From Pyrobaculum sp. 3827-6 (GTDB lineage: Archaea; Thermoproteota; Thermoprotei; Thermoproteales; Thermoproteaceae), in the NCBI RefSeq assembly GCF_025641885.1, contig NZ_JAOTQN010000001.1, forward strand, positions 310,001-374,000: 64,000 nucleotides of DNA. Direction: 5' to 3'. Every line of letters starts with the position of its first letter. The stretch's first letter is position 1. The notes beneath the pieces are model-generated. The model worked only from the letters and a program-made list of their open reading frames with translations, searched no databases and was not told the origin of the DNA. Shown here piece by piece: positions 19,789 through 42,297 of the stretch. A program made the position numbers and the translations under genes.

Positions 19789-19849
19789 AAATACAGGGGA
19801 CGTCCGCAGGAGCCGCAGAAACTCTTTAATAACATTTACAACTCGACAC

Positions 19850-22249
19850 ATGGGCAGATGGGTTGTCACCCTCCTTCTACTACTTGTCTTTATAGCGTAT
19901 GCCAAGCCCTTCCTCGGAGGGGAGGCGTATTATATGTGGGACGTGGGGAGGGCGGCTGAGGAGGGGTCACTCCCCGTCTTCATAACGCCCGACCTCGCGG
20001 GGGTTAGACACGAGGTGTACCTCGGCGAGAAGCTGTGGGTCGTTGTCCAGATACGCAACGCATATTCGCCGTGTCCCTTCTCTATAGAGATTGTGGACGT
20101 CGATACCGACGCCACGGTGGCGTCGAGAAGCGCCACCCTCAACGTCTGCGGCGGATCTATGCTGGGCGGCATGTACTACACGTTAGTCATCCCCGAGTTT
20201 GGCATCACGGAGCCCGTGGTGGAGGGTAAGAAGTACAAAATCGTGGCGCGGGTTGGTAGCGAGTGGGGGGCCACCACCTTCACAGAGAGACACGCCCCGC
20301 CCGCCAAGATATCCTCCATCACCGTTTTCGAAGGGGGGAGGGCCGCGACGCAGTTAAAACAAGGCCAGAAATACGAGGTGAGGGTCAAGGTCAGGAACAA
20401 CGGCGAAGCTGACGGCAAATACACAGCCGTCTTATACCTAGACGGCGTCAAAACCAACGAGACCCAGGTCATGGTCCTGGCGAGGAGAGAGGGGGAGGCG
20501 GCCCTCAGATTCACCGCCAACGCCACGGGGCAGAAGCTCAACATAACCGTCGCGGTGTTCGGCGTGATACTGCAAGACGCCCAGTCCCTCCTGGTAGACG
20601 TAATATACCCACAGCCCAAGTTTGTGGCAGAGTCGCCCCCGGAGATAATGGCGAAGGTTGGGGAAGCCGTGGAGGTTAAAGCCAGACTCAAGAACCTGGG
20701 CGACACATGCCGCGTCGCCGGCGTTACATACGCCGCCTCTCCCCCGGCCGACGTCGACATAAGCATGACAGGAGGCACAGTGGCGCCTGGCGGCTACCTC
20801 GACCTAAGCCTAAAGATAGCCCCCAGAGAGGCCGGGGTTGGCCACCTCACCCTGTCGATAAACTGCGCACAGACCACAGACAAGGTAGAGATCCCACTCC
20901 GCATATACGCCAAGCTAACAGTAAAGGCCGCCGATCACCGAGGCGGGGCGCCGCCAGTCCGCATTACCATCAACGGGCGCGAAGTAAACGAGATCTCCCT
21001 ACCCGGGGGCCAAGTGGAGGTGGAGGCGGAGAGGGAGAAGGTGCTGGGCAACCTCCGCTACGTCTTCGACAAGTGGAGCGACGGCTCTGCGGAGAACCCG
21101 CGGACGCTGAACCTGAGGACAAACACCGAGCTGGTTGCCCTCTACAAGGTGCAGTACTACGTCAAGGTGGACGCCCCCGGCGCGAGGGTAGAGGGCTGGT
21201 ACGACGCTGGGACCACCCTCAACCTCCCCATACAGCGGGAGATCGCCTCCGGCGACACGAGGAAGGTCTTCACAGGTTGGTCGGGCGCCGGTTGCCCCTC
21301 TGCAGGCGCCATCACTGTGATCGGGCCCGTGGACTGCGTTGCCCAATACAGAGACGAGTATAGAGTCGTTGTGGAAGATCCCCAGGGACGCTTCGGCGGC
21401 ACCTTCTGGATCCCCATGGGAGCCACTTTTACAAGCGACATACCACTGACCTACGAAGCTACGCCAGACACGAGACTTAAGCTAGCTGACGTTGAGGGAT
21501 GCAGGTGGAGCAGGCGGGGCACATCCGCCGTAATCGAGGTCAGCGGGCCAGCGAGATGTATAATTAAGTGGACAAAAGAATTCAAGATCACTATAAACGA
21601 CGGCCTTGGCGTATATAGAGACATATCTCTGTGGGTAGGCGAGGGCAAGGTTTTAGCGCTTGGGAGCGGCGACGTCTTCTCCGTGGGGAACGACAGCGTG
21701 GCCCTACCTGCTACACAGACACGAGACTCCGTGAGGTACGTCCTGGCTGGGTGGCAGTGCGGAGGCGAGCAACTCCCCACGACAGCTCAGATGACCATCA
21801 AGTCAGCCATCCAGTGCACAGCCCAGTGGGTAAAGGAATACCCAGTCACCACGGCGGTGTATCTAGACGGGAGAGAAGTCGCCAGAAGCCCCACCACGTG
21901 GCTGAGAGAAGGCCAGTTAATAGAAAAAGACAGCACAAGGGAAGCCCCTCCCCCAGGCCCCCTCTCCATAGTTGAGTTTGACAAATGGGAAGTCAACGGA
22001 AAGGAGATCAAAAACAAAACATTAAAAATGTGGGTAGACGCCCCGCTCTCAATATACGCCTACTACCACACCAACAACCTACCTCTGTACCTCCTAATCG
22101 GGGCCGTAGCCGGCGGAGCAACCGCGGCATTCCTAATATTTACAAGAAGGAAGAAGGGAGAGACGACGGTAGTCAGAGGCTCCAAGACAGTGGAAATTGA
22201 ACCCATTAAGGAGGACTCAGACACAAAGGTTAGAGAGACCAGAGGATAA
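19850..22249 (+). CDS. Secreted beta-repeat receptor-like protein with C-terminal membrane anchor and Thr-containing tail
   Basis: 799 residues: signal peptide (VVTLLLLLVFIAYAKP), CARDB-like beta domains, then at least four repeats with the pattern ...FDKW..G......L...T...A.Y...Y.V, resembling bacterial cell-surface Flg_new/List-type repeats. A membrane helix (LYLLIGAVAGGATAAFLIF) follows, with a basic cytoplasmic tail of about 35 residues containing GETTVV, a possible phospho-threonine site. A TATA-like CTTTAATAAC is 24 nt before the ATG. It heads the kinase operon and is a paralogue-like match in layout to the protein at 39412-41763 on the far side of the locus, so it may be the sensor or surface scaffold of the system. 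Confidence 0.7.
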   Translation: MGRWVVTLLLLLVFIAYAKPFLGGEAYYMWDVGRAAEEGSLPVFITPDLAGVRHEVYLGEKLWVVVQIRNAYSPCPFSIEIVDVDTDATVASRSATLNVCGGSMLGGMYYTLVIPEFGITEPVVEGKKYKIVARVGSEWGATTFTERHAPPAKISSITVFEGGRAATQLKQGQKYEVRVKVRNNGEADGKYTAVLYLDGVKTNETQVMVLARREGEAALRFTANATGQKLNITVAVFGVILQDAQSLLVDVIYPQPKFVAESPPEIMAKVGEAVEVKARLKNLGDTCRVAGVTYAASPPADVDISMTGGTVAPGGYLDLSLKIAPREAGVGHLTLSINCAQTTDKVEIPLRIYAKLTVKAADHRGGAPPVRITINGREVNEISLPGGQVEVEAEREKVLGNLRYVFDKWSDGSAENPRTLNLRTNTELVALYKVQYYVKVDAPGARVEGWYDAGTTLNLPIQREIASGDTRKVFTGWSGAGCPSAGAITVIGPVDCVAQYRDEYRVVVEDPQGRFGGTFWIPMGATFTSDIPLTYEATPDTRLKLADVEGCRWSRRGTSAVIEVSGPARCIIKWTKEFKITINDGLGVYRDISLWVGEGKVLALGSGDVFSVGNDSVALPATQTRDSVRYVLAGWQCGGEQLPTTAQMTIKSAIQCTAQWVKEYPVTTAVYLDGREVARSPTTWLREGQLIEKDSTREAPPPGPLSIVEFDKWEVNGKEIKNKTLKMWVDAPLSIYAYYHTNNLPLYLLIGAVAGGATAAFLIFTRRKKGETTVVRGSKTVEIEPIKEDSDTKVRETRG

Positions 22250-22271
22250 CTTTAAAACTAGTAGGAGGTCA

Positions 22272-22802
22272 ATGAACATGCCAAGACTACCATGGATATT
22301 CTCAGTAATACTATTAGCTAAAGTTATCTTAGCCAGTGTGGCGGGGGGGTACAACAACACCAGCGTCTTAAGTGGAAATGTGACTCAAATTCTTGAATTA
22401 GAAAAAAACCTAACCACTTTAAAAAACCAGACAGAAAAACTCAGAGACTTGGTCAACTCTCTAAATAAGACTCTAAACCTGCTAGAAGCAAATCAAACAA
22501 AACTTAATACAGCATTAATGGACCTAAGGCTCTATGTAAGAAATTTAGATAATAATATACAGAACATTGATAACCTAGTAAAAAAATTAGATAATGATAT
22601 GCAGAACAATAATCTAGTACAGACGCGACTTAATCAAAGCCTCACGGCCAGCTTAAAGAATTTTGAAAGATTATTAAAAGATTTATATACATACATACTT
22701 GTCGTATTAATTATTTCCGTTGTTTCTTTGTCTATTGCCGGCTTCGCCCTTATAAAAGCCCTCAGACAGAAAGCCGCCGCGCCCGGCGACATATGTGCGT
22801 GA
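22272..22802 (+). CDS. Coiled-coil membrane protein upstream of kinase
   Basis: About 176 residues, AT-rich. An N-terminal signal or anchor (WIFSVILLAKVILASVAG), a long Asn/Leu-rich extracytoplasmic coiled coil (residues 40-140, with NLTTL, NQTEK and similar sequons that could be glycosylated), a membrane helix (YILVVLIISVVSLSIAGFALI) and a short basic tail. ATG 22272 has a strong Shine-Dalgarno (AGGAGGTC) 3-10 nt upstream; ATG 22278 would be leaderless from ACTTTAAAAC. It probably signals or bridges between the surface protein and the kinase; that is inference from order. Confidence 0.65.
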   Translation: MNMPRLPWIFSVILLAKVILASVAGGYNNTSVLSGNVTQILELEKNLTTLKNQTEKLRDLVNSLNKTLNLLEANQTKLNTALMDLRLYVRNLDNNIQNIDNLVKKLDNDMQNNNLVQTRLNQSLTASLKNFERLLKDLYTYILVVLIISVVSLSIAGFALIKALRQKAAAPGDICA

Positions 22803-22808
22803 CAACAC

Positions 22809-23999
22809 ATGTCTGGTGAAGGTCTGCTCTCCGTCGGCGCGGTTCTGGGAGGTACCTACAAAGTCGTGCGACAACTAGGGCGGGGAGGCATGGCCGTGGT
22901 TTGGCTAGTGGAAGACAAGGAAAAAAACCTCTATGCCCTAAAGGAGCCTATTGTAAAGGGCGTCTCTCCAGAAAAGGCGAAGCAACACATCGCTTTCATC
23001 GACCACGAGAGAAAAATCTTGGCGCAGATAAGCCACCCCAATGTATTGAAGCTGTACGGAGCCTACAAAATGAAATATGGAGGCATGGAGCCAGTAATAA
23101 TCCTCACCGAGTACCTCGACGGCGGCTCGCTGAGAGATATAAAAGAGCCCATGTCCGCAAAAGAGCTGAGAGACACAGCACGCCAGATACTCGAAGGTCT
23201 AGCCGCCGTCCACAAGCTAGACATTATTCACAGAGACATCAAGCCAAGCAACATAATGAGGGGACGCGGCGGCTTAAAAATCGTAGACTTCGGCACAGCG
23301 CTACACCGCTTCGAGAAGGCGCTTCAGATAGTGATCTCCCCCGGTTGCTACACGGCGCCTGAACAATCGGCCGGCGAGAGCCTCCCGCAGAGCGACGTGT
23401 GGTCTGTCGGCGCCACGTTGATATACCTAGCCACAAAAGAACTCCCCTATAAATACATGAAGGGGTACACAAGAGACTGCAGAAAAGTCGGCGACATCGA
23501 GCTAGAGCTACCAGATCTAGGCGACGATTTGCTAAACCAGTTTTTAAAAAAGGCGCTACACCCCGACTACAAACAAAGATTTGCAGACGCCGCAGACGCC
23601 CTCGGCTTCCTCCAGGGAGAGGCAAAGGCAGAGAAGCCCGGCCTAAAACTAAGAATAAAGACGCACCAAGTAAGAGTCTCCGGAGGGAGGCTCTACATAG
23701 GCAGAACCGACGACCCAAAAATGGACATGAAGGCAGAGGGGGAGGTGCTCTATATATACGACCCAAACCGCTACATATCCCGGCGCCACGTAGAAATAGC
23801 AGAAATCAACGGAAAGTGGTTTATCAGAGATCTAGGTAGCACAAACAACACCGCAATCTACAGAGACGGCAAGTGGCACGTCATATCAAAAGGCAAGGGC
23901 ACCACCTCCCCGTGGTTTGAACTAGCGTCGGGAGACATCATATCGCTGGGATACGACGAAGAGAAAGGCCCCTACATACAGATATACGTAAGGATATGA
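22809..23999 (+). CDS. Ser/Thr protein kinase with C-terminal FHA domain
   Basis: 396 residues. A complete Hanks-type kinase domain: glycine loop GRGGMA (24-29), lysine K45, HRDIKPSN (141-148), DFG (160-162), APE (184-186), DVWSVG. The C-terminal FHA domain (about 280-396) has GR (298-299), SRRH (324-327) and STNNT (344-348), all canonical. It should phosphorylate Ser/Thr in the cytoplasm and bind phospho-threonine itself; no membrane helix is present. It is followed by a PP2C gene overlapping by 4 nt, the classic kinase/phosphatase pair. Confidence 0.93.
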   Translation: MSGEGLLSVGAVLGGTYKVVRQLGRGGMAVVWLVEDKEKNLYALKEPIVKGVSPEKAKQHIAFIDHERKILAQISHPNVLKLYGAYKMKYGGMEPVIILTEYLDGGSLRDIKEPMSAKELRDTARQILEGLAAVHKLDIIHRDIKPSNIMRGRGGLKIVDFGTALHRFEKALQIVISPGCYTAPEQSAGESLPQSDVWSVGATLIYLATKELPYKYMKGYTRDCRKVGDIELELPDLGDDLLNQFLKKALHPDYKQRFADAADALGFLQGEAKAEKPGLKLRIKTHQVRVSGGRLYIGRTDDPKMDMKAEGEVLYIYDPNRYISRRHVEIAEINGKWFIRDLGSTNNTAIYRDGKWHVISKGKGTTSPWFELASGDIISLGYDEEKGPYIQIYVRI

Positions 24000-24802
24000 T
24001 AGCCGTAGCGCTGTACACACCCCTCCTCGGCTTCGCAACAGGCGCCGCAGACGGGACACAGCCGCGTCTAATATGCAACAGCCCGCCACAGCTAAAAAAA
24101 CCCCGCAGATGCCGAAACCCGCTGGTAGCCGCCGGCGTCTACAGCGCCAAAGGCCCGAGACCCAACAACGAGGACGCGGCCCTCGCGGTGATCTACCGAC
24201 AAGACAAGCAGATCTACAGCCTAGCCGCCGTCGCCGACGGCGTAGGCGGCCTCCGCAAAGGAGAAGTCGCCAGCCACGTCGCCGTCTGCCGCCTCGCGGA
24301 GGTCTTCATAAGCCACGTCACCAGAGGCGCCGCGCGGACAACCCAGTGGAGAACCTGGATAAAAGACGCCATAGACGCGGTACACCGCGCAGTCGTAGAA
24401 AAGGCAGGCGGAGGAGCCACGACCCTGACAGTGGCGATCTACGACGGCCAGCTCCTCCACGTGGCAAACGTCGGCGACAGCCCAGCCTACCTAGACGGAG
24501 GCATAGTAACCACGGAGCTCGACGAACAGGGAAGCTACATAACCCAGGCCCTGGGCCACAGAAGCTACACAGCACCTCACTACTACAGCCGCCCGCTACA
24601 CGCCAAGCGGCACGAGGTGGTGCTAGTCACAGACGGGGTAGACGACGTGTTGAAAAAAGAGGGGAAAGAGCTTTACAAAACGCCAGCAAAAACCCCCCTC
24701 TGCAAAGCCTGCCGCCTAGTCAACACAGCCCTCGCCAGAGGCGGGCGCGACAACGCCACAGCCGCCGTCATGTGGATCTACCACCCAGGAACTGTAGATT
24801 AA
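23996..24802 (+). CDS. PP2C-type Ser/Thr protein phosphatase
   Basis: 268 residues with the metal-binding motifs intact: NED (58-60), DGVGG (81-85), GGGATTL (138-144), GDS (160-162), TDGVDD (212-217), RDN (251-253). It is expected to be an active Mg/Mn-dependent phosphatase opposing the neighbouring kinase. The first 45 residues are an extra extension with two cysteines. ATG overlaps the kinase stop (ATGA). Its 3' end overlaps the convergent FHA gene by 35 nt, so those transcripts are antisense there. Confidence 0.93.
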   Translation: MIAVALYTPLLGFATGAADGTQPRLICNSPPQLKKPRRCRNPLVAAGVYSAKGPRPNNEDAALAVIYRQDKQIYSLAAVADGVGGLRKGEVASHVAVCRLAEVFISHVTRGAARTTQWRTWIKDAIDAVHRAVVEKAGGGATTLTVAIYDGQLLHVANVGDSPAYLDGGIVTTELDEQGSYITQALGHRSYTAPHYYSRPLHAKRHEVVLVTDGVDDVLKKEGKELYKTPAKTPLCKACRLVNTALARGGRDNATAAVMWIYHPGTVD

Positions 24803-25508
24803 CCACCTGCGCCACCGAGATAATATCCCCCGGCCTCAGCAACTGCGCCCCCAACCCCCTTATAGACCTCCCATTTAGAAAAGTGCCGTTCTTAGAACCC
24901 AAGTCCTCGATATAGTAGGCACCACCCGAAAAAGTAATAGCGAAGTGAACCCTGCTGATGTACTTAAGCAACTCCTGCGGAACACCCACCCTAGCAAAAA
25001 ACTCACGACCAAAAACCATATACGACCCCCTCACCTGAAGCCTAACGCCGGTAGGCAACTGCAGAAAATAGACAGGCTCCCCCCTGACGGGAGGCTTAAA
25101 CACCTTCACCACCCCCCGCCTAGAGGCCACCCACAGCGCAGCCACCACCGCGCCGGCCACAGCCACAGCCACGAGAGGCACAACAAGCGGAGGCAACCGC
25201 CCCCCAATAGTTATGTTGTAGATATACGGAAGCCCGTTGTGAACTATATACACCCGGTACTCCCCCTGCGCCGTGTTGGGAGTAGTCCTCCACAAAAGGT
25301 ACTTGCCGGTGATCCTCACCTCGAAATCCCTCTTAACAACCACATGCCCCGTAGACACGTCCACAACCTCGACGCTGGCCAACCCCGGCTCGTCAAAATA
25401 CACATACACACTCTCCCCAGGCGCAAAGCTAAGCCTCTCCAGCCCCGCGTCGTCGACAACGGTTACCCCCCACGCCGCCGCCGCCAGAAGCAGAACCAGC
25501 AAAAGCAT
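24768..25508 (-). CDS. Membrane protein with extracytoplasmic beta domain and cytoplasmic FHA domain
   Basis: About 246 residues: signal peptide or anchor (MLLLVLLLAAAAWG), a beta-rich outer domain, a membrane helix (PPLVVPLVAVAVAGAVVAALWVA), a juxtamembrane stretch, and a C-terminal FHA domain with GREFF, SRVHF and SKNGTFLNG, all key residues present. I chose ATG 25508 because GATATAAAT lies about 24 nt upstream; an upstream ATG at 25547 would overlap the divergent gene. It may read phospho-threonine at the membrane. Convergent with the PP2C gene. Confidence 0.85.
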   Translation of the reverse strand: MLLLVLLLAAAAWGVTVVDDAGLERLSFAPGESVYVYFDEPGLASVEVVDVSTGHVVVKRDFEVRITGKYLLWRTTPNTAQGEYRVYIVHNGLPYIYNITIGGRLPPLVVPLVAVAVAGAVVAALWVASRRGVVKVFKPPVRGEPVYFLQLPTGVRLQVRGSYMVFGREFFARVGVPQELLKYISRVHFAITFSGGAYYIEDLGSKNGTFLNGRSIRGLGAQLLRPGDIISVAQVVNLQFLGGRST

Positions 25509-25538
25509 AAAAATTAATATAGAGGTATTTATATCTTT
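25509..25538. promoter_or_regulatory. 30-nt overlapping divergent promoters in the FHA cluster
   Basis: Two leaderless starts face away from each other, ATG 25508 (minus) and ATG 25539 (plus), with 30 nt between. The minus-strand TATA (GATATAAAT, about 25527-25535) and the plus-strand TATA (CATAAAAATTA, about 25506-25516) lie within or next to the opposite gene. Transcription of the two genes is likely to be mutually exclusive or jointly controlled. Confidence 0.5.
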
Positions 25539-27101
25539 ATGAAACAACTCGGCAACCTCGAGGTGGAGATCTACGCCAGCGAAGCCCCCGAAGGCTATGT
25601 AGACGTCGAGGTGAGGCTCAAAGGAAGCCCCCAGGAGCCCGTCCCCGAGCGGGAAGTCGCCTTCGCCATACTAATAGACAAGTCAAAATCCATGGCGGAG
25701 TTCGACAAGCTACAACACGCCATACAAGCCGCCAAAGAAATCATAGACTCCATGCCCCCCAACAACATCGTCGCAGTCTACGCCTTCGACGAAAAAATCA
25801 AAACCCTCATCCCCCCACTCCCCGCCGAGAAGGCACAAAAACTAGCAAAACACCTCGAAAAACTCAAGCCAGGCACCTACACCCTCCTATACCAAGCCCT
25901 ACTCCACGTAATAGAAGAACTCAGAGGAGTCAAAAAAGGCCCCCTCCGCAGAGGCGCCGTCCCAGAAGACGCCGTCAAGCGGATAGTAGTAATCACAGAC
26001 GGAGAACCCTGGCCCTACTACACAGAGGAGAGGTGGTACGAATCCCTAGGCAGATCAGCCGCCAAATACGGAATAACCATATCAGCCATCGGCATAGGAC
26101 AAGACTACAACGAAAAAATACTACACACCCTAGCCACATCCTCAGGCGGCGCCTGGTACCACATAACCAGCGCAGGAGACCTCTCCAGAGTACTAGCAAA
26201 CGAACTCAAGCGGGCAAGCACCGTAGCAGCCCGCCACGTAAAAATCACCATAGAACCCACAGGAGCCGAACTCACAGAAGTAAGAAAAATAGGCCCCACA
26301 GTATCCAAACACCCACCCACAAAAGAAATAGAGATAGAAGAAATAACCGCAGGCGAGGTAGTCAGCACAGTCTTCAGAACAAAACCAACCACACAAAACT
26401 ACCACATCACCATCACAGTAGCCACAGAAGAAGGCCAAATCCAAGAAGAAATAACCCCCCAGAAACTCACCACAGACCGAACCGCAACCCTAACCCTAAC
26501 CATGGCCCAAGAACTAGAAAAGCTAGCCCAAGGCGGCGTCATCAGCGTCGAGGTACTCAGAGCAGTAGCCGACACCGAAACCACCCCAGAACACATCCGC
26601 AAAAAAGCCCAAAAACTCCTACAAGAACCACACCAAACAGGAAAAGAAGCCTACTGGGACGCCACAGTAACCCTCACCCTAGAAGAACCCAAACCCCCCA
26701 CCCAGCCACCCACAGAAGCCACCCCCCAACCCCAGCAACAAACCACAACCCAACCCCCAGCCACGGAGCCCACCACCCCCCACCCCACAAGCCAAGCAGT
26801 AAAATGCGTAGTAACATGCCCAGAAACCGGAAAAAGCATAGAAGTGGAACTACCAGCCCTCCTCGGCAGAGAAGACCTACAGCCAATACTACCCCCCGGC
26901 AAAGCCCCCTACATCTCCCGCAGAATAGGCGAAAGGGCCCACCTCAAAATATACACAACACCCCAGGGAATATACATAGAAGACGCAGGAAGCAAAGGCG
27001 GCATATACATAGAAGGAAAAAGAGTCACCCAGCCCACCCCACTCCCCAACACCACCATAAACCTCGCAGGAGTGGCAGATATAAAAATAGAATGTAAATA
27101 A
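25539..27101 (+). CDS. VWA-domain protein with C-terminal degenerate FHA domain
   Basis: 520 residues. N-terminal von Willebrand A domain with MIDAS DKSKS (47-51), the threonine of GTYTLLYQ and ITDGEPW; a beta domain; a Pro/Thr/Gln-rich linker (PPTQPPTEATPQPQQQ); then an FHA-like domain with LLGRED but SRRIGERAH instead of SRxH and SKGG instead of SKNG, so phospho-binding may be lost or altered. A cytoplasmic adaptor is likely. VWA plus FHA partners recall ArnB/ArnA, which control the Sulfolobus archaellum (a known system, not shown here). The coding strand is strongly A/C-rich. Confidence 0.88.
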   Translation: MKQLGNLEVEIYASEAPEGYVDVEVRLKGSPQEPVPEREVAFAILIDKSKSMAEFDKLQHAIQAAKEIIDSMPPNNIVAVYAFDEKIKTLIPPLPAEKAQKLAKHLEKLKPGTYTLLYQALLHVIEELRGVKKGPLRRGAVPEDAVKRIVVITDGEPWPYYTEERWYESLGRSAAKYGITISAIGIGQDYNEKILHTLATSSGGAWYHITSAGDLSRVLANELKRASTVAARHVKITIEPTGAELTEVRKIGPTVSKHPPTKEIEIEEITAGEVVSTVFRTKPTTQNYHITITVATEEGQIQEEITPQKLTTDRTATLTLTMAQELEKLAQGGVISVEVLRAVADTETTPEHIRKKAQKLLQEPHQTGKEAYWDATVTLTLEEPKPPTQPPTEATPQPQQQTTTQPPATEPTTPHPTSQAVKCVVTCPETGKSIEVELPALLGREDLQPILPPGKAPYISRRIGERAHLKIYTTPQGIYIEDAGSKGGIYIEGKRVTQPTPLPNTTINLAGVADIKIECK

Positions 27102-27104
27102 GAC

Positions 27105-27509
27105 ATGGAAGAAAAAACAGAAACCCTAGACATACCCATACAACCCCTAATCCCCCCACTCCCCCCACTACAACCCGCCGAACAGACACAGCCCATAAAA
27201 CCCACCAAAAAGCCACCCTACACCCTCACAGACCCCACAGGCCGCTACAAACTATCCACAACAAACTACGCAGAATACGGAAGAGACCACTTCCTAGACC
27301 TAGGAGAAGACGCCCAATACATATCCAGAAAACACTTCGCACTAAAATACCAAAACGGCACACTATACATAAAAGACCTCGGAAGCAAAAACGGAACAAA
27401 ACTCAACGGAGTCGACATACGAGGCAAAGACTGGCAACCACTAAAACCCGGCGACGAAATAGAAATCGCAGACGTCATAAAACTAAAAGTAGTAACAGAC
27501 AACATTTAA
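27105..27509 (+). CDS. Small GarA-like FHA protein
   Basis: 134 residues: a Pro-rich N-terminal segment with KTETLDI, then an FHA domain with GRDHF, SRKHF and SKNGTKLNG, all key residues present. The size and layout, a threonine near an acidic residue ahead of a lone FHA domain, match GarA/OdhI, where kinase phosphorylation makes the FHA domain bind its own tail. The resemblance is structural, not proof of function. It starts 4 nt after the VWA gene, so same operon. Confidence 0.88.
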   Translation: MEEKTETLDIPIQPLIPPLPPLQPAEQTQPIKPTKKPPYTLTDPTGRYKLSTTNYAEYGRDHFLDLGEDAQYISRKHFALKYQNGTLYIKDLGSKNGTKLNGVDIRGKDWQPLKPGDEIEIADVIKLKVVTDNI

Positions 27510-27529
27510 GAAACAGACTCATACAACAC

Positions 27530-31165: not shown

Positions 31166-31167
31166 CG

Positions 31168-33396: not shown

Positions 33397-33424
33397 GTTG
33401 TTAATATTGTTTGGGGATATAAAC
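33397..33424 (-). promoter_or_regulatory. Internal promoter in pilin operon
   Basis: The only real gap (28 nt) in the seven-gene operon holds TTTATATCC on the minus strand, centred about 24 nt before ATG 33396, matching other leaderless promoters in the window. Confidence 0.45.
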
Positions 33425-33964: not shown

Positions 33965-34554
33965 CACCTAGCCAGGGCCTGTCTGATGTACAGCTTGATG
34001 AAAGTCGCCGACCCGCTGTATACCTCTCTCCCGGCGGCTGAGATAGTAACTGTGCAGCTGGTGGATTCCTTTGGGATTATTGTGATTTCTTTTGTGTCTA
34101 TGGTTTCTAGGGCTAGGGGGGAGCCGTATATTTTTTCATCTGCGATGTTTGTAATATTGGTGAAGGTAATGGCTATGTACTTGACGCCGTAGAGTGTCTC
34201 TGTGGATATGTGTGATCCGTAGGGGGGGACTTCGCCTTCTTTAAACACCGCGGTGAGGTCTGGCTTTACCTCTGTCAAGCTCTCCATGGGGTGCGGCGCG
34301 AGGTACCACGCCGAGGCATCATAAGACGTTGCGCCGAGGGAGTCTGCGGCGCAGTTGCTTGACCAGCTGATTTTGAAACCTAGTTTTTTGACGTAGAGCG
34401 CCTCTCTGAAGTTGTATATGTTTGACACTTTCAGCAACTGCCAGCCCACGTCTAGAGCCTTGGCCGAGTCTAGAAGAGGAAAAAGGAAAGTAGATACGGT
34501 TGCTACTAACGCGACGACAAGGAAAAAAAGGAGGATAGTTGGTACGATGTCCAT
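33964..34554 (-). CDS. Pilin-like membrane-anchored protein
   Basis: 196 residues: N-terminal helix (TILLFFLVVALVATVSTFLFPLL), then an exported beta-rich domain with two cysteines. ATG overlaps the pilin stop (TAATG). Family not recognised beyond layout. Confidence 0.6.
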   Translation of the reverse strand: MDIVPTILLFFLVVALVATVSTFLFPLLDSAKALDVGWQLLKVSNIYNFREALYVKKLGFKISWSSNCAADSLGATSYDASAWYLAPHPMESLTEVKPDLTAVFKEGEVPPYGSHISTETLYGVKYIAITFTNITNIADEKIYGSPLALETIDTKEITIIPKESTSCTVTISAAGREVYSGSATFIKLYIRQALAR

Positions 34555-35060
34555 TAACGCACCGTTACGGGGTAGAGCTCAGTCCTTTCTCTGCCGCTTC
34601 CCTTTTGGTAATATACGGCCAAGTAGTAAGTAACGCCAGGTTGTAGATCTTGATTCGTGATTCTGCCTACTAGAGTTTTAGATTGACCAGCTTGTAGTGT
34701 AAGATCTTGCCCACCTTGTTGCCCACTTCCCTGATTAGTGGAGAAAGTTATTGGAATTCCCTCATCCTGCCCGCCTCCGCTACCTTGCCCACTACTTCCG
34801 CTACCTTGTCCGCTACTTGTGCCGCCTAAGAGCTTTGCCTCAAGGATTGTTGTTGAGGCGCCACCTACTTCTCTTACAGTTATTGATACGTCATATGTTT
34901 TGTCGCCTATTTTTGTAATGCTTGCTTTTTCAATTATGACTTTTGGCTGTGGGTTGAACATTCCTGAGAACATGCCCCAGAACATTAGGACGGCTACTAT
35001 GCCTATCACCGTCAGCAGTACTGCTATTACCACGCCGCTGATGCCTCTTGGGTTCCGCAT
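34554..35060 (-). CDS. Archaeal type IV pilin, probable major subunit
   Basis: 168 residues. N-terminus MRNPRGISGVVIAVLLTVIGI is a textbook archaeal class III signal: RG then I-S, followed by the conserved hydrophobic helix (DUF1628-like). The globular domain has an unusual Gly/Ser/Gln-rich insertion of about 35 residues (SGQGSGSSGQGSGGGQ). First gene of the operon with a TATA-like ACTTAAAAAC 25 nt upstream. Divergent from the secretion ATPase. Confidence 0.85.
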   Translation of the reverse strand: MRNPRGISGVVIAVLLTVIGIVAVLMFWGMFSGMFNPQPKVIIEKASITKIGDKTYDVSITVREVGGASTTILEAKLLGGTSSGQGSGSSGQGSGGGQDEGIPITFSTNQGSGQQGGQDLTLQAGQSKTLVGRITNQDLQPGVTYYLAVYYQKGSGRERTELYPVTVR

Positions 35061-35409
35061 GTTTTGAGTTTTGTTGTTGTTTTTAAGTTTTTTGTCTATA
35101 TCTGGTGTGTAGTTGGCGGCTGGTTTGGGCTGTGTCTCTGAAGTGTTGTATGTGAATTCATATGGTGGTGTGTCGTGCCTTATTTGTGGTCGGCGTGTGG
35201 TTTCTGGCTTGGGTTGGGGCTGTGGGGTTTATGCCGCGGTTGAGCTGACTGACGTCTTGTGTGGGCCTGTGCGGGGGTTGGTTGTGTAGTTGTGAGGGGG
35301 GTTGTGGGGGGTGCTGGGGTGCCTATTGGCGTAGAGTGGGGTTTGGCTGTGGCGGCTTTGGCCGCTTTGGCTTTGGGGGAAGTTTTTTATTGTTGGTGTA
35401 TTTCTGGTT
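35061..35409. promoter_or_regulatory. 349-nt divergent intergenic region between pilin operon and ATPase operon
   Basis: The longest gene-free stretch of the window. The ends hold the two promoters: ACTTAAAAAC (about 35081-35090, minus) 25 nt before the pilin ATG and AGTTTTTTAT (35381-35390, plus) 24 nt before the ATPase ATG. The middle 290 nt is G/T-rich on the plus strand with no credible ORF, hairpin or sRNA that I could see; it is a candidate regulatory region. Confidence 0.55.
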
Positions 35410-37692
35410 ATGCGGCTGTTTTCCAGATCTAGGGATGTGGAGGAGGGTTCTGAGGGGGGTGGTGGGCGTCGTGGGTTGTTTGGTAGGAGGAGGAAGGGTG
35501 AAGGGGAGGAGGAGGGGGGGTCTGGGGTGTCTGTTAGGGTGTGGCGTGGGGGTGTGGAGGGGCGTGTGGTGGAGTCTTATAGGGTGGGTATTTCGACGGT
35601 TAGTGTTGTGGAGCGCGGCGCGTCTCTTTACTATGTGGTGGAGGACCCTCCCGTCTCGGAGAGGGATTTAAGGAGGCTGGGGTCTGTGTTGGAGAGGATT
35701 TCTGAGGAGTTGGAGGATCCTGGGCTTTTTCTGGACGTCCAGAGGCGGGAGGAGGCTAGGGCTTATCTGAGGGAGAGGCTTGGGAAGCTGGGGGTTAAGA
35801 GCGACGTTTTGGTGGCGTTGGCGGAGCGGGAGCTTTTGGGGTTTGGGCCTCTGGATCCTGTGCTTAGGGATAAGAATTTGGAGAATGTGGAGTGTAAGGG
35901 GCCTGATGTGCCGCTGACGGTGTTTCACTCGCGGCATGGCCGTATGGAGACTAATATGTCGTTTTCGAGGGGGGAGCTTGACCGGCTGGTGCAGAGGCTG
36001 GTTTTTCTGTCTGGGAGGACTATCAGCATCTCTAGCCCGAAGGTTGACAACGCTTTTCTGCCGGGGGTTGGGCGCCTCACCGCGACCTACGGGGGGGAGA
36101 TCTCTCCTCAGGGCTCGTCGTTTGTGGTGCGTATTTTTCCGGAGAGGCCTTGGACGGTGCTGGGGCTTCTGGAGCGGGGTACTATTTCGCCGGAGCTGGG
36201 GGCTTATCTGTGGCTTGCTGTGGAGTTTAAGATGCCGATTTTGGTGGCTGGGGAGATGGGGTCTGGGAAGACTAGCTACGCCAATGCCCTTCTGGGGCTG
36301 GCGCCGCCTGACAAGCGGATCGGCACCGCGGAGGACCTCCCCGAGTTTAAAATTCCTCATTTGAACTGGCAGTCGCTTATTACCGACGATAGGAGGGGGG
36401 TTACGCTTATGGATCTGGTGGCTCTTCTCCTGCGCTACAACGTGGATTATGTTGTTATCAACGAGATTAGGGGTGCGAGGAATCAGAGGGGGGAGGTGGA
36501 CGCCGTGGCGTGGTTCCAGGCTGTGGCGACGGGGCACGGGGGTGTCACCACAATACACGCCGACACTGTGGAGGACGTGTTTAATAGACTTGACCAGATG
36601 GGTATCCCGCCGTCGTACCTCACCTCCCTGGCGCTTGTGGTGTATATCGGGAGGTTTAAGATCGGGGGGAGGATCCAGCGCAGGACTCAGTACGTTTTTG
36701 ACATCGTGGACCCCGCGAAGAGGCTTTACAACACCATATTTAGATACGACAGGGACTGCGACTGCTACCGGGCTGAGGGTCTCGAGTCGGCGAGGACTAC
36801 TAAGAGGATTATGGAGCTGGCTAAGTGGGACGCCGAGAGGTTCAAGGCGGAGTTGGATAGGAGGGCTGAGTTCCTGAGGAGGCTCCTCTGCATCCACCAG
36901 AGGAAGCCTATTGTTGATCTTAGGGAGTTGGCCGAGCTTTTTGCGAGGTTTTATAGGGGGTACATGCCTGAGGTTGGGGACTGCGCACCGGCGCAGCTGG
37001 GGCCTCGGCAGCCCGCCGCCGCGCCTAGGCCCTCTGCTGAGTGGGTTCTGAGGTTTAGGGGGCCGCGCGGCAGGAAGGTGTACTACTTCGAGCCCTCCCC
37101 CGGCTTGGTGTTGCTTAACGTGGAGGGGAACTCCAGGGTTGTGGAGGATGAGGTGTTTGAGCTGTATGTGAATGGGAGTGGGGAGCTGAGGTACAGGGTG
37201 GAGATGGATGGCAGGGAGGTTGGGCGGGGGGTCCTGCCTCTGGTTAAGCAAGCTCCTGGTGGCGTGTCTGGGGATCTTGTCCCCGCGTCTAGTGGGGCCG
37301 CGCCTCCGGCTGGGCGGGGGGCGGAGGCGGCCGGGGCGGTGGGCGAGGAGACGCTGGTGGCTGAGGAGACGAAGGTTGTTGAGGAGACTCTAGTCGCCCC
37401 CCAGGTTGGTGACCTGTGTATCAAGTTCGGCGGTGGGGTTGTCAAGCTTGTAGATGGGAAGGTCTATGGGAGGGCTGACTTTGGCTTTCTGGAGGCCGAT
37501 TTGGCTTCGTATGTTTCGCGTCAGCATTTTAAGTCGATGCGTGTGGAGGGGCGTTGGTATCTCGTGGATTTGGGGTCTAAAAACGGCTTGTATATAAACG
37601 GCGCCAGGGTCGAGGCTGGGGGGCGTGCTGAGGTTTGGCCGGGTTACAGGGTTAGGGTAGGCAAGGCGGAGGGGGTGGTGGAGCTATGTTGA
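35410..37692 (+). CDS. Type IV pilus/Tad-type secretion ATPase fused to a C-terminal FHA domain
   Basis: 760 residues. The N-terminal 40 residues are charged and Gly-rich. The GspE/FlaI/TadA ATPase core has LLGFGPLDP, Walker A GEMGSGKT (281-288), Walker B-like VVINEIRG (348-355) and the His box TTIHADT (380-386). A C-terminal linker holds a period-6 threonine repeat EETLVAEETKVVEETLVA (nt 37345-37398, Thr 648, 654, 660), and then an FHA domain with YGRADF, SRQHF and SKNGLYING. The ATPase powers pilus assembly or secretion at the inner face of the membrane; an FHA fusion is not part of normal FlaI/PilB/TadA and suggests control by Thr phosphorylation. It overlaps the platform gene by 7 nt. Confidence 0.95.
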   Translation: MRLFSRSRDVEEGSEGGGGRRGLFGRRRKGEGEEEGGSGVSVRVWRGGVEGRVVESYRVGISTVSVVERGASLYYVVEDPPVSERDLRRLGSVLERISEELEDPGLFLDVQRREEARAYLRERLGKLGVKSDVLVALAERELLGFGPLDPVLRDKNLENVECKGPDVPLTVFHSRHGRMETNMSFSRGELDRLVQRLVFLSGRTISISSPKVDNAFLPGVGRLTATYGGEISPQGSSFVVRIFPERPWTVLGLLERGTISPELGAYLWLAVEFKMPILVAGEMGSGKTSYANALLGLAPPDKRIGTAEDLPEFKIPHLNWQSLITDDRRGVTLMDLVALLLRYNVDYVVINEIRGARNQRGEVDAVAWFQAVATGHGGVTTIHADTVEDVFNRLDQMGIPPSYLTSLALVVYIGRFKIGGRIQRRTQYVFDIVDPAKRLYNTIFRYDRDCDCYRAEGLESARTTKRIMELAKWDAERFKAELDRRAEFLRRLLCIHQRKPIVDLRELAELFARFYRGYMPEVGDCAPAQLGPRQPAAAPRPSAEWVLRFRGPRGRKVYYFEPSPGLVLLNVEGNSRVVEDEVFELYVNGSGELRYRVEMDGREVGRGVLPLVKQAPGGVSGDLVPASSGAAPPAGRGAEAAGAVGEETLVAEETKVVEETLVAPQVGDLCIKFGGGVVKLVDGKVYGRADFGFLEADLASYVSRQHFKSMRVEGRWYLVDLGSKNGLYINGARVEAGGRAEVWPGYRVRVGKAEGVVELC

Positions 37693-39371
37693 GGAGGCTT
37701 TCGCCTGACCCGGAGCAGGCGGCTGTTCTGGGGGTTAGGCTGGACGCGCTGAGGCGCACTGGCTTGATTTTGGTGGCCGCCGTCGGGGGCCTTGGGGGGG
37801 TTTTGGCGGCGTTTGCCTTAATGGCGCGCCAGCCGATGTTTCTAGCCGGGGCTCTGCTGGCGTTTCTCCTCGCGCCTGTGTTGTATATGTACCCCCTTTT
37901 TGAGGTTAGGAGTAGGCTGGGGAGGGCGGAGGGGGAGCTTCTGCCTGCGGCTGTGTACGCCACTATCTACGCCGCGGCGGAGCGGGATATGGCTGAGGGC
38001 TTCTTCGCGGTGGCTCGGGAGGCGGATCTCGCCCCGAGCTTGTCTGCGATGGCTAAGGGGGTTGAGAGGTTGCGGGTGAAGCGCCTCATCCCGACGTCGT
38101 ACGAGGCTCTGGGGGAGGCGGCGCGGCTTTTTGAGGGGAGCAAGGTTTCAGACTTCCTAATCACCATGTCTGTCGCCCGCACGGTGGGGCTTAGCCAGTA
38201 TATCCAGGCGAGGGATCTTTTGAGGAGTGTCTTGTTTGAGCTTAAGTCCGCCTATGCCCGTCTGGCTGAGAACTTGAAGACGCTGGGGGAGGTGATTTTG
38301 GTGTTTTTCGGCGTCTTGCCGCTGATGCTCTTCATCACCACGACGATTTTCTACAGCTCTGGGGCGTCTATGCAGTTGCTGGCCTACACCTTTGTGGGGA
38401 TCCCGCTCTTCACCGTGGCCTTGGCTTTTCTCCTAGACGCGTCGTATCCCAAGACGCCTGAGAAGTTTTTGAGGTGGTACAGGCTGTACGGCATCGGGGC
38501 GGCCGCGGGGGCCGCCGCGGGCTTCGCCGTGTATATGGCTGTGAGCCCTCTGGGGCTTCCGGTGAAGTCTCTCCCGGCTAACGGCCTGCCTTTCCTTAGA
38601 GATATCCGGGCGTCGTACGCCGCGGCCATTGCGCTGGGCGTGGCGGCGGCGGTTGTCTTCGGCTTCGTTGTTCCTAAGTACCTGGCGGAGAGCTCCAGGA
38701 GGTGGGGGCTCATCTCGGCGTTGCCTTTCTTCACCAGGGACTTGGCTGAGTTGGTGAAGACTGGGCTGTCTCCCGCGCAGGCGGTTGTGAGGCTTGCGGA
38801 GAGGAAGACGTACAATAGGCATTTTGACCGGCTTTTGAGAGACGTGATGAGGAGGATTGTGTCGGGGGCTACTTTTTCAGAGGCGGTGAAGGCCGCGGGG
38901 GCTGGGGCGCCGTGGTTCGCCCGCGTGGTTCTCCACGCCTCGGCGGAGGCGGAGAAGCTGGGCGCTAGACACGAGATTTTTGCAGAGCTCGCCGACACGT
39001 CGAGGGAGCTTGTGGATATTTTGAAGGCGGCGCGGGCAAACGCCAGGGGGTCCGTCATGTTTGGCTTTATGACTATTGGCATAATCGCCGTCCTCATGGG
39101 GGGCGTGGTGAAGACGCTGGTTTTTCAAGTAGCCGACTACGCTACGAACGTGTCGGCGGCCGGCGCTGTTCCTATGAATATTCAGCTAATTACATGGAGC
39201 AGGGTACCGGAGGTGTTGAGATACGCCTTGGTGGGGGCTGTCATAAACTCGGTGGCTTTGGGGGTTCTGATTGGTAAGATGAGTGACGGCAACTTCTTCG
39301 CCAGCGCTCTTTACGGACTTATAGCTTCAATCATAGCCACCGCCTCGATATTTGCGTCACTCTTTATATAG
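37686..39371 (+). CDS. TadC/FlaJ-like platform membrane protein (two T2SSF domains)
   Basis: 561 residues with about nine membrane helices and two T2SSF-like cytoplasmic regions (around residues 75-190 and 340-440), the layout of archaeal pilus platform proteins. It binds the ATPase and the pilins. The ATG overlaps the ATPase gene by 7 nt, so the two are made together. Confidence 0.9.
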   Translation: MLRRLSPDPEQAAVLGVRLDALRRTGLILVAAVGGLGGVLAAFALMARQPMFLAGALLAFLLAPVLYMYPLFEVRSRLGRAEGELLPAAVYATIYAAAERDMAEGFFAVAREADLAPSLSAMAKGVERLRVKRLIPTSYEALGEAARLFEGSKVSDFLITMSVARTVGLSQYIQARDLLRSVLFELKSAYARLAENLKTLGEVILVFFGVLPLMLFITTTIFYSSGASMQLLAYTFVGIPLFTVALAFLLDASYPKTPEKFLRWYRLYGIGAAAGAAAGFAVYMAVSPLGLPVKSLPANGLPFLRDIRASYAAAIALGVAAAVVFGFVVPKYLAESSRRWGLISALPFFTRDLAELVKTGLSPAQAVVRLAERKTYNRHFDRLLRDVMRRIVSGATFSEAVKAAGAGAPWFARVVLHASAEAEKLGARHEIFAELADTSRELVDILKAARANARGSVMFGFMTIGIIAVLMGGVVKTLVFQVADYATNVSAAGAVPMNIQLITWSRVPEVLRYALVGAVINSVALGVLIGKMSDGNFFASALYGLIASIIATASIFASLFI

Positions 39372-39411
39372 ATTTGTGAGAAAATTTTTTAAACTGGGAG
39401 AAGTTTTGGAT

Positions 39412-41763
39412 ATGCGTAAGGAAGTCGTTATATCGCTTGTAATCGTTATGTCGCTCATGTTAATGCAGATAACGCATGCACAGGACATAGTAAGATATAG
39501 CACTACTGTAAGGGCGCCACTGCCTTCGCCTTCGGGGGATTTTATAGTGGTGGTGGCGGACGAGTATGGTTTTGTCAGGGGCGAGGCCTATCTTGGTGAT
39601 TATCTATATGTTGTCTTTGACTTGACTCAGTTCACTGGTAGGGTGAGGGTTAAGGTGTATTTTGACTATAGGCTGGTGGCGGAGGGTACTGTGGATGGGG
39701 GGTATTGGTATGCTTATGGTTTTAGGACTGTGGAGCCTATTTTTGAGGGTAAGGTCTACACTGTTAGGGTGGAAGTATATTCGCTCGGCGGTGTCCTGCT
39801 GGGGAGCGGGACGTATAGCTATGTGGAGAAGTACTGCCCAGATGCCGACATTGTTGACGTAAAGTGGAGCCCGTTTATTCATAAGCAGACTTCTTCTGTT
39901 ACTGTGAGGGTTAGGAACAGGGGGGAGAGGGGTGAGGCTTATCGTGTGGTTGTGTATTCCCAGTCTGGTGCTTTACGGGAGACTTCCGGGTCGGTGAGTG
40001 TGGGGTCGGGCTCTACTGGTGAGGTGACTCTGGCGGTTCCGGTGGATAAGTACGTGTCTAATGATGTGATGTATGTAAAGGTGCTGTGTGCCGGGGGGAG
40101 GAAGGAGGCGGCTGTCCGCACGTTTCCCATCTCCGTGGTTCCTCAACGGCCGGGGCCTTTCACAGCTTCGATTAGCACTGTGGAGCTTAGGCTGGGGGTT
40201 GAGGGTGTGTTTTCTATTACTGTGACTAACAAGGGGTATGCGGCCGACATAGTTGATTTCTCGCTGTCTGAGGGGCGGTATACGGTGGATAAGCCTTCGC
40301 AGGTGGGGGAGGGCGGATCTGCTACTTTTACTATTAGACTTACGCCTGAGAGGGCTGGGGTGTACGAGATCAAGGCGGTGCTTCGCTATAAATCTCCTGC
40401 GACAGGCGAGGTGTATGAGGATGTCTTTACGATACCTGTGAAGGTATATGCCAGACTTGCCGTAGAGTTGCGTGACCACACTGGCCAGTTGCTGGACGCC
40501 GTGCCTGTGATTGACGGAGTGGCGGCGCGGGAGAGGTGGCTCCTTCCCGGCACCTACACCGTGGAGGTTCCTCAGGTTGTGAATGTCGCCCCAGACGTGA
40601 GGGCTGTTTTTGAGAGGTGGGAGGGGGCGGCTGGGGGGACGAGAGCCACGGTGAGCCTCGAAAAGAATACTGTGGTGAAGGCGTTGTACAGCAGGCAGTA
40701 CCGCGTCGTGGCCTACCTCGCGCCTGCCGGTAACAACCTGGAGGCGTGGGTGAGGGAGGGCGACGTATATACCCTGCCGGTTGATAAGTACGTCTCCGTG
40801 GAGAGGGGGGTGAGGTGGGCTTTGAGAGATGTGAGGGTGAACGGCGTCTCGCAGGGTGTAAATACGCAGTTCCGCGTGGTGCAACCCACCGAGGTGAGGA
40901 CTGTGTGGGCTCGGGAGTACCTCCTAGTTGTGGACTGCGGTGATGTAAAGTGTGTAGGGGGGGAGAGCCGAGTGGAGAGGTGGGTTGAGGAGGGGGGCTC
41001 TCTGAGTGTCAGTCTTGAGCAGTATGTCCCGGCTGGGGGTAGGGAGAGGTGGCGGCTGGACGGGGATGCGAAGATGTCTATAAAGGCCGATGGGCCGAGG
41101 GAGATAAAGCCGAGGTACGTGAGGCAGTATCTTCTTAAGCTGGGCTATGTGGTTAGGGATGCCTCCGGAGAGGTCGAGAGGCGGGTTGTGAAGGAGGAGT
41201 GGGTAGACGCCGGTGTTCAATATTCAGTAGATGCCAACTCCCTCAGGCCGGTGGGGGGCGAGGGGGTTAGCTACAGACAGTCCGCCGTACTGCTTGACGG
41301 CAAGCCGTCGTCGGCGTCTTTCACCGTGGCGGCTCCACACGACGTCTATGTGGTCTGGGATAAGTACTACTTAGTGGAGGTCTATACGCCAATCGGAACG
41401 GCCTCTGGGGCCGGCTGGTACCTGGCTGGTAGCTACGCCACCGTGTCGATTGACCAGCCGGTGCGCGGATTCCTAGTACTGGACAAGTTTGAAGGTTGGA
41501 GAGATCAGAGTGGCAACATGTATAGAAACGCAACTGTTACTCTAAGGGTTGATCAGCCGATTAGGTTAACTGCCGTGTGGTCTAAAGACTACACACAGGT
41601 TGCCGCAGTAGCCGCAGTTGGGGGGGCTGTGGGATTTTTTGGATGGATAAAGCGCGACGCTCTGGAGAGTATGTGGTATAGACTGGAGAGTACTGTGACA
41701 AGAACGCGGAGTAGTGATAGAAAAAGGAAGAGGAAGAATATAGATATTGAAAAAGTAGAATAG
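39412..41763 (+). CDS. Secreted beta-repeat protein, second member of the pair
   Basis: 783 residues from ATG 39412: signal peptide (VVISLVIVMSLMLMQITHAQ), beta domains, then four or more FExW..G......TV.A.Y...Y.V repeats like those of the 19850-22249 protein, a C-terminal membrane helix (AAVAAVGGAVGFFGWI) and a basic tail (DRKRKRKN). The frame is open to 39352, but a TATA-like TTTTTTAAAC lies 25 nt before 39412. It closes the pilus operon and mirrors the first protein of the kinase operon. Confidence 0.75.
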   Translation: MRKEVVISLVIVMSLMLMQITHAQDIVRYSTTVRAPLPSPSGDFIVVVADEYGFVRGEAYLGDYLYVVFDLTQFTGRVRVKVYFDYRLVAEGTVDGGYWYAYGFRTVEPIFEGKVYTVRVEVYSLGGVLLGSGTYSYVEKYCPDADIVDVKWSPFIHKQTSSVTVRVRNRGERGEAYRVVVYSQSGALRETSGSVSVGSGSTGEVTLAVPVDKYVSNDVMYVKVLCAGGRKEAAVRTFPISVVPQRPGPFTASISTVELRLGVEGVFSITVTNKGYAADIVDFSLSEGRYTVDKPSQVGEGGSATFTIRLTPERAGVYEIKAVLRYKSPATGEVYEDVFTIPVKVYARLAVELRDHTGQLLDAVPVIDGVAARERWLLPGTYTVEVPQVVNVAPDVRAVFERWEGAAGGTRATVSLEKNTVVKALYSRQYRVVAYLAPAGNNLEAWVREGDVYTLPVDKYVSVERGVRWALRDVRVNGVSQGVNTQFRVVQPTEVRTVWAREYLLVVDCGDVKCVGGESRVERWVEEGGSLSVSLEQYVPAGGRERWRLDGDAKMSIKADGPREIKPRYVRQYLLKLGYVVRDASGEVERRVVKEEWVDAGVQYSVDANSLRPVGGEGVSYRQSAVLLDGKPSSASFTVAAPHDVYVVWDKYYLVEVYTPIGTASGAGWYLAGSYATVSIDQPVRGFLVLDKFEGWRDQSGNMYRNATVTLRVDQPIRLTAVWSKDYTQVAAVAAVGGAVGFFGWIKRDALESMWYRLESTVTRTRSSDRKRKRKNIDIEKVE

Positions 41764-41831
41764 ATATAAAAATTACTTTTTTAATTATAACATTTTTTCA
41801 ACTATATGATTTTTATTGACTTAATGGTATG
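41764..41831. terminator. T-rich region between convergent genes
   Basis: AT-rich 68 nt with several runs of T (ACTTTTTTAATTATAACATTTTTTC) just after the plus-strand stop, typical of archaeal oligo-T termination. The stop of a convergent gene lies at its right edge. Confidence 0.4.
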
Positions 41832-42212: not shown

Positions 42213-42297
42213 GGGGTGTTGTTGGAGGCGTCTTTTAAGCTGTGGCCCGCCGCGGGGGGGGGGCGTCAGGTTTATATAGGGGGGTTGGGGCTTTTTT

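Follow-up and report, generated by a model that had tools for sequence, protein, structure and literature searches.

Archaeal pili are very diverse, and to our knowledge hardly anything has been reported on how they are regulated after assembly; the best-studied phospho-switch, the Arn network, acts on archaellum expression. We found no report of an archaeal pilus switched by phosphorylation in the open-licence literature. The combination of a TerY-type vWA protein, a PP2C phosphatase, and a kinase, associated with ter genes, is known as the TerY-P triad.

In bacteria, FHA domains are fused to Tad ATPases in the Kil system of Myxococcus (KilF; PMC8460266), whose description mentions no kinase, and in the class III CpaF proteins (PMC12019362), while the binding of an FHA domain to a phosphorylated threonine of TssL activates the type VI secretion system (T6SS; PMC3953482). 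In Sulfolobus, ArnB phosphorylated by ArnC binds the FHA domain of ArnA (PMC12852372), and the part of the survey by Makarova et al. (2016) used here reports the ArnA and ArnB genes as never occurring in type IV pilus (T4P) loci (PMC4858521). The same part of that survey credits the T4P locus of Thermoproteus uzoniensis with at least six unique extra components and does not describe its kinase or FHA content (PMC4858521). The actinobacterial FHA protein OdhI is phosphorylated at Thr14/Thr15 in its tail (PMC2784874).

Here, we describe a locus of the hot-spring archaeon Pyrobaculum sp. 3827-6 in which genes of both kinds, for phosphothreonine signalling and for a pilus-like machine, lie together. 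It was examined in a stretch of 64,000 nucleotides (contig NZ_JAOTQN010000001.1, positions 310,001 to 374,000), hereafter the window, whose coordinates are used throughout. A first-pass annotation of the letters had read the locus as a phosphothreonine signalling cassette built beside a pilus. The genes it named are all present at the coordinates given below, with five FHA proteins above the Pfam cut-off and with intact kinase, PP2C, and ATPase motifs.

A discrete island beside spt4

The locus occupies positions 19788..41862 (about 22.07 kb, no strand assigned), inserted between spt4, which ends at 19787, and a conserved 126-aa gene (41832-42212, minus strand). In the closest relative, G004 (Rpb7 98% identical, flanks about 96% identical), DNA homology ends at 19,787 and restarts at 41,863, and 78 bp separate the two matching points; therefore, the span first marked out is a discrete insertion. 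We searched 19 relatives with the Rpb7 gene to the left of the locus and mapped the window genes onto the retrieved stretches. The same site was empty in all 10 relatives in which it was readable (nine congeners and one further member of the family): there, the spt4 region beside rpb7 adjoins the 126-aa gene, with AlaRS next in eight of them; the DNA marker on the left was an ORF running antisense to spt4. The GC content is 0.52 in the island versus 0.58 and 0.59 in its flanks. Signs of a mobile element were looked for, and neither direct or inverted repeats of at least 10 bases at the island ends nor an integrase among the island genes could be found. Pfam recognizes seven FHA matches in the whole 2.30-Mb assembly, five of which fall in the island within about 14 kb.

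Two further features of the genome may be mentioned. A coiled-coil protein with heptad repeats (IDEVNKRIDE) is encoded at 42242-42823 (plus strand), between the island and AlaRS; the gap that holds its gene is close to zero in most relatives and shorter in G004, and related coiled-coil ORFs occur near the corresponding locus of G015, a Thermoproteus. Moreover, a second kinase and FHA gene pair (G000:C2:142320-143497, L170) exists independently of the island, and relatives of its kinase occur elsewhere in the genus.

Kinase, phosphatase, and FHA proteins

The Hanks-type Ser/Thr kinase (22809..23999, plus strand; 396 aa) carries a C-terminal FHA domain (Pkinase, 9.9e-40; FHA, 1.2e-7), retains its catalytic motifs (K45, HRDIKPSN, and DFG), and has homologues of 29-61% identity. 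The PP2C-type phosphatase (23996..24802, plus strand; PP2C_2, 1.1e-13) has intact acidic motifs and an Stp1-like NCBIfam match of 3e-28 that lies below the equivalog cut-off. The membrane FHA protein (24768..25547, minus strand; FHA, 5.4e-15) comprises a signal/transmembrane (TM) segment, a small ectodomain, a second TM segment, and a cytosolic FHA domain, with the TM segments at residues 10-28 and 112-130. Upstream of the kinase, a small coiled-coil membrane protein with two hydrophobic segments (22275..22802, plus strand; start codon uncertain) had no homologue in the related loci.

In the VWA-FHA protein (25539..27101, plus strand; Pfam VWA, 4.6e-18; FHA, 3.7e-6), an ArnB-like region of beta-sandwich, vWA domain, and helix bundle is followed by a linker and then by the FHA domain. 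Its PDB sequence matches are vWA2 5a8j (1.5e-15) and 8s05, and Foldseek, run on an AF2 model with a mean pLDDT of 70, placed 4fx5, 8s05, and 5a8j on top (TMt 0.58-0.62), in agreement with the tripartite fold of ArnB. As modelled, the protein is an ArnB fold with an FHA domain added in cis, so that ArnA- and ArnB-like parts are predicted to share a single chain. This FHA domain is atypical, with an insertion (SRRIGERAH) and GSKGG in place of G-S-x-N-G, and judging from its sequence it may not bind phosphothreonine. The small soluble FHA protein (27105..27509, plus strand; 134 aa; FHA, 6.5e-15) has a Pro/Thr-rich N terminus and not a single cysteine, and hence no RanBP2-type zinc finger of the kind found in ArnA.

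Surface proteins, exported protein, and pilus genes

Surface protein A (19850..22249, plus strand; 799 aa; Pfam CARDB, 2e-6) consists of a signal peptide, CARDB/Ig-like repeats, a C-terminal TM segment, and a predicted cytosolic tail with repeated T-x-V. Surface protein B (39412..41763, plus strand; about 783 aa; Pfam Flg_new_2, 1e-4) has a signal peptide, Ig-like and InlB-B-like repeats, a probable C-terminal TM segment, and a short basic tail; its start is more likely at 39412 (MRKEVV..., opening a signal peptide) than at the TTG at 39352. As had been proposed for these large proteins at the two ends of the locus, they belong to one family, being 24% identical to each other and linked by profile matches. 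Homologues of surface protein B in G015 and in G005 (Thermoproteaceae archaeon Bin S10) are 40-45% identical and lie behind or flank the kinase arm.

The 1211-aa exported protein (27530..31165, plus strand) has its sole homologue in G015, at 31-34% identity versus 72% for the ATPase, i.e., it is fast-evolving. Pfam, NCBIfam, and PADLOC gave no match to it, and an AF2 prediction of its fold from a two-sequence alignment was discarded at a pLDDT of 33. We regard it as a candidate secreted substrate or adhesin.

The secretion ATPase of the T4P/Tad family (35410..37692, plus strand; T2SSE, 2.2e-24) has an intact Walker A motif (GEMGSGKTS), a linker (EETLVAEETKVVEETLVA), and a C-terminal FHA domain at residues 700-751 of 760 (2.5e-9). 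It is of the archaeal GspE type, with afGspE (2oap, 1.3e-65) as its best PDB match, and its score of 222 bits against the NCBIfam FlaI equivalog is under the 550 bits or more required of an archaellum FlaI/ArlI. The TadC/PilC-like platform protein (37686..39371, plus strand; T2SSF, 1.2e-12) finds its best NCBIfam relative in UpsF of the UV-induced pili, at 84.6 bits where at least 400 are required.

Seven pilin-like proteins (31168..35060, minus strand) are encoded, all on that strand, at 34554-35060, 33964-34554, 33425-33967, 32914-33396, about 32522-32920 (start uncertain), 31773-32525, and 31168-31776. The first-pass annotation had called all seven pilin-type. Each of them has a single N-terminal hydrophobic segment and is conserved in G015, in the same order and with 38-73% identity; a canonical class III leader (R/K-G / hydrophobic), judged by eye, is present in only three, namely, the first, fifth, and sixth of those listed. 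The ORF at 33393-33848 was rejected as a shadow ORF, the true gene there being 33425-33967 (minus strand). A scan of the genome for prepilin peptidases gave no match to PF06847 and a single match to PF01478 (C3:131263; 24.2 bits, E 7e-5), below the cut-off of 26.5.

Distribution of the two arms in relatives

The whole set occurs in just one other genome, G015, at a different genome site and without the flanking genes of the island. There, the two arms are at most 18 kb apart, and the ATPase is 72% identical, full-length, and equipped with the C-terminal FHA domain. The order of the genes for the membrane FHA protein, VWA-FHA protein, large exported protein, seven pilin-like proteins, ATPase-FHA, and platform is the same as in the window; the PP2C and kinase genes, by contrast, are found beyond the platform gene, with the surface-protein gene after them. 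Among 398 genomes of the phylum, a full-length ATPase with a C-terminal FHA domain was found only in these two, both of which have the kinase arm. Beyond them, the nearest relatives of the ATPase (family f40) align only as far as the linker, and their locus in G166 has no adjoining kinase arm.

The kinase arm is more widespread, in a patchy manner (3 of 19 family genomes). It was found in G005, in Vulcanisaeta JCM 14467, JCM 16159, and KMA_Bin30, in other metagenome-assembled genomes (MAGs) including one of the Desulfurococcales, and in G070, which belongs to another family. Where long flanks were available (G030, L058, JCM 14467, JCM 16159, and G070), kinase and PP2C are accompanied by a membrane FHA protein and a surface protein, with no T4P ATPase or platform; several other kinase-arm contigs measure only 3.5-6 kb and carry little information on neighbours. 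In particular, the G005 locus (L048, contig C27, 1-8563) reproduces the gene order of the window, from the kinase through PP2C and the membrane FHA, VWA-FHA, and small FHA proteins to the surface protein, except that precisely the pilus block is absent where the small FHA gene gives way to the surface-protein gene; it is thus a natural pilus-minus core of the island.

Since the kinase arm occurs without pilus genes in relatives and G005 keeps the gene order minus the pilus block, comparison of these sequences indicates that the signalling part is an older, separate membrane-signalling module of Thermoproteia (kinase, PP2C, FHA, and surface protein), to which the pilus arm would be a plug-in that brought its own FHA domain. 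The same pilus-free occurrences, together with G005, rule out the kinase arm as an integral part of the pilus. Accordingly, the notion of a pilus-specific cassette had to be abandoned, as most relatives that have the kinase arm have it without pilus genes, whereas the vicinity of cassette and pilus held up, with both arms in one island and again in G015 at another site. The separation of the arms, named beforehand as what would speak against the cassette, was seen in one direction: kinase arms without a pilus arm were found, and no orthologous pilus arm without a kinase arm was found in the relatives. The link of the module to pili rests on two genomes because most kinase-arm loci have no nearby pilus genes.

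As for the state of these loci, the kinase gene is broken by stops or frameshifts in Vulcanisaeta JCM 14467 (L052/L053) and JCM 16159 (L065), and so is the surface-protein gene in JCM 14467, which may reflect decay or errors of the draft assemblies. The richest kinase-arm locus is that of G070 (L075/L076; another family of the class), with three FHA proteins, PP2C, kinase, surface protein, and a large exported protein weakly similar to VWA-FHA.

A threonine motif in tails and linkers

The motif [D/E/G/Q]-T-x-[V/I] is repeated in the tails of surface proteins, in FHA linkers (the membrane-FHA linkers of relatives), and in the ATPase linker. In 18 cytosolic tails and linkers (1008 aa), T-x-[VI] was observed 39 times versus 13.4 expected from within-sequence shuffles, a count that none of 3000 shuffles reached. 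In the same set, neither S-x-[VI] (3 versus 6.6 expected) nor the reversed order (7 versus 13.4) was enriched, and A-x-[VI], E-x-[VI], and T at +3/+4 spacing showed no comparable enrichment; T[VI] was mildly raised (25 versus 13.6), partly since TVV-type tags score under both patterns. A preference of FHA domains for the residue at pT+3 is known from other systems. The tags do not obviously satisfy it, their conserved residue being at +2, and with T..[VI] and T..[DE] unenriched while T.[VI] is enriched, pT+3 was ruled out as the determinant of the tag. The tail of OdhI reads ETTSV, compatible with T-x-V.

The motif was found by inspection, so the comparison of 39 with 13.4 is post hoc; fairer tests are the tails unseen when the motif was noticed (a small set of 179 aa) and a genome scan. 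Two unseen membrane proteins of JCM 16159 (322 and 191 aa), with no detectable similarity, have three tags each, and the unseen FHA linkers of G008, a genome without a detected orthologous kinase arm, are free of tags. When 472 ORF tails taken from all loci were scanned blindly, eight had at least two [DEGQ]T.[VI] within their final 60 residues; every one of these lies in a kinase-arm neighbourhood, and two of the eight are the same gene in overlapping loci. In our own genome (874 ORFs, 864 kb of 2.30 Mb), the single tail with at least two [DEGQ]T.[VI] is that of surface protein A, and the single 30-aa stretch with three matches is the ATPase linker. The latter is poorly conserved with respect to G015, yet its EETLV..EETKV..EETLV is kept as EETVV..EETRL..EETLV, that is, as three EETx[VL]. 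Candidate phosphosites are Thr648, Thr654, and Thr660 of the ATPase, along with threonines in the surface protein A tail; in surface protein B of the window, the tail does not have the motif.

Membrane proteins with T-x-V-rich C-terminal tails are also encoded in the kinase-arm neighbourhoods of Vulcanisaeta (L110:1511-2479, minus strand; L110:2837-3412, plus strand; L052:5283-6668, plus strand), an example being EGTRIYSSETLVKSAQEETRVKEKEQ. Such T-x-V-tailed proteins without detectable similarity are candidate clients of the FHA network.

A possible phosphothreonine switch and the alternatives

The combination of a kinase, a phosphatase, and threonine tags that immediately adjoin an FHA domain or sit on receptor-like tails is, at the sequence level, consistent with a switch based on phosphothreonine-FHA recruitment. 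It is possible to hypothesize that contact with a surface, or the state of the envelope, is sensed by the surface proteins or by the membrane FHA protein, the best sensor candidates being the surface proteins with their Ig-like/InlB-like repeats, one C-terminal TM segment, and tagged tail. The kinase would phosphorylate the threonine tags, and FHA domains would bind them, joining receptor tail to motor, or motor to motor or scaffold; this binding would place the ATPase under the platform and so start or stop pilus growth or secretion. PP2C would erase the marks, and the ArnB-like VWA-FHA protein and the small FHA protein would serve as scaffolds. The presence and conservation of the parts are observed; from them we infer that the tags are phosphorylated and bound by FHA domains, that this governs where the motor is placed or how active it is, and which way the switch works.

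Our preferred reading, to which we give about even odds, is that the island encodes an archaeal machine resembling a type IV pilus, through which the 1211-aa protein may be secreted, and that this machine is under such a local phosphothreonine switch. The earlier suggestion that phosphorylation turns the pilus on or off draws support from the FHA domain of the ATPase itself, the three E-E-T-x-[V/L] kept in both ATPases, and the threonine motif in surface-protein tails, from which control of assembly would be an extrapolation. More tentatively, and with the balance tilting somewhat against it, Thermoproteia may use a general phosphothreonine tail code, in which one FHA-kinase would write [D/E/G]-T-x-[V/I] tags on unrelated membrane proteins (surface receptors, others, and the pilus motor), PP2C would erase them, and FHA proteins would read them; new machines would plug in through a tag plus an FHA domain, and the window would present a captured motor.

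The alternative that fares best, although we consider it rather unlikely, is that the module controls the surface proteins, as envelope or S-layer-like receptors, with the pilus arm merely co-travelling and the ATPase FHA domain tethering the motor to phosphorylated receptors without any switching. It agrees with the recurrence, without pili, of precisely the set of surface protein, membrane FHA, kinase, and PP2C, and with the tagged tails of surface proteins and unrelated membrane proteins in T4P-free loci. Against this, the highest tag density in the genome sample belongs to the ATPase linker, all three of whose tags are conserved across 72% identity, and the FHA fusion of the ATPase was found only alongside the kinase arm.

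We deem it improbable that control is transcriptional, in which case the FHA/VWA proteins would assemble, depending on phosphorylation, into a complex that represses pilin expression, and the ATPase would not be a target. The model of the VWA-FHA protein, predicted to be soluble and of the ArnB fold, would suit this reading, as would the regulation of archaellum expression by Arn proteins through kinase-dependent assembly (PMC6509490, PMC12852372). However, no DNA-binding protein was recognized among the island genes, the ArnA-type zinc finger is absent, the FHA domain and tags reside on the ATPase itself, and, in the part of the survey used, Arn genes are reported to be absent throughout from T4P and archaellum loci (PMC4858521).

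Finally, an island for defence or inter-cell competition, delivering the large exported protein upon contact by a Tad-like apparatus in the manner of Myxococcus Kil, appears highly improbable: the patchy kinase arm (3 of 19 family genomes), the fast evolution of the exported protein (31-34% versus 72% identity for the ATPase), and the FHA-rich Tad-like precedent (PMC8460266) are in line with it, but no toxin or immunity domain was recognized, and the PADLOC search, on which a defence system was rejected, returned just generic kinase matches.

In the island, kinase, phosphatase, readers, and probable phosphosites all lie alongside the machine, and these phosphosites are known by residue. If the pilus-like machine is indeed under a local phosphothreonine switch, a ready-made receptor module would have captured a motor through the addition of a tag and an FHA domain, which would be a simple way for regulation to evolve.

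Comparison with known systems

The locus of G015, of the T. uzoniensis type, shares with the island the ATPase-FHA, platform, seven pilin-like genes, large exported protein, VWA-FHA, membrane FHA, kinase, PP2C, and surface protein; it differs in lacking a small FHA protein, in having a single surface protein where the island has two, in the position of kinase and PP2C at the far side, and in its genome site. Partly from its gene content, we infer that G015 corresponds to T. uzoniensis and its locus to that singled out by the survey (PMC4858521).

The first-pass annotation had likened the locus to T6SS and to ArnA/ArnB, and both remain analogies. The threonine phosphorylation pathway of T6SS (PpkA/PppA/Fha) likewise combines a Hanks kinase, PP2C, and FHA proteins to control a secretion machine, whereas the machine of the island is a type IV pilus, without T6SS components. 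The VipB/TssC sheath, sought in our own genome with a positive E. coli control, gave no match, which rules out membership in T6SS; of the proteins scanned against the TagH/Fha family TIGR03354 (cut-off 120 bits), the kinase scored 19.1 bits and the ATPase 16.2 bits. With the Sulfolobus ArnA/ArnB/ArnC network, the island has in common a vWA protein of the ArnB fold, the reading of phosphothreonine by FHA domains, and an archaeal kinase; it differs in that the FHA domain stands in cis on the ArnB-like protein, no zinc-finger ArnA is present, the phosphatase is PP2C rather than PP2A, and the genes lie inside a T4P locus. Actinobacterial OdhI/GarA resembles the island as an FHA protein with a phosphorylated threonine tail, but is a single soluble protein that controls metabolic enzymes.

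Closer bacterial parallels, absent from the first-pass annotation, are the FHA-fused Tad ATPases (PMC8460266, PMC12019362). Kil and class III CpaF share with the island an FHA-fused secretion ATPase, an FHA-rich locus, and a Tad-like platform; in them, the FHA domain is N-terminal to the ATPase, whereas in the island it is C-terminal, on an ATPase that, unlike theirs, is of the archaeal GspE type (best PDB match, 2oap). If the proposed switch operates, the island would represent an archaeal counterpart of the FHA-controlled T6SS and of Kil.
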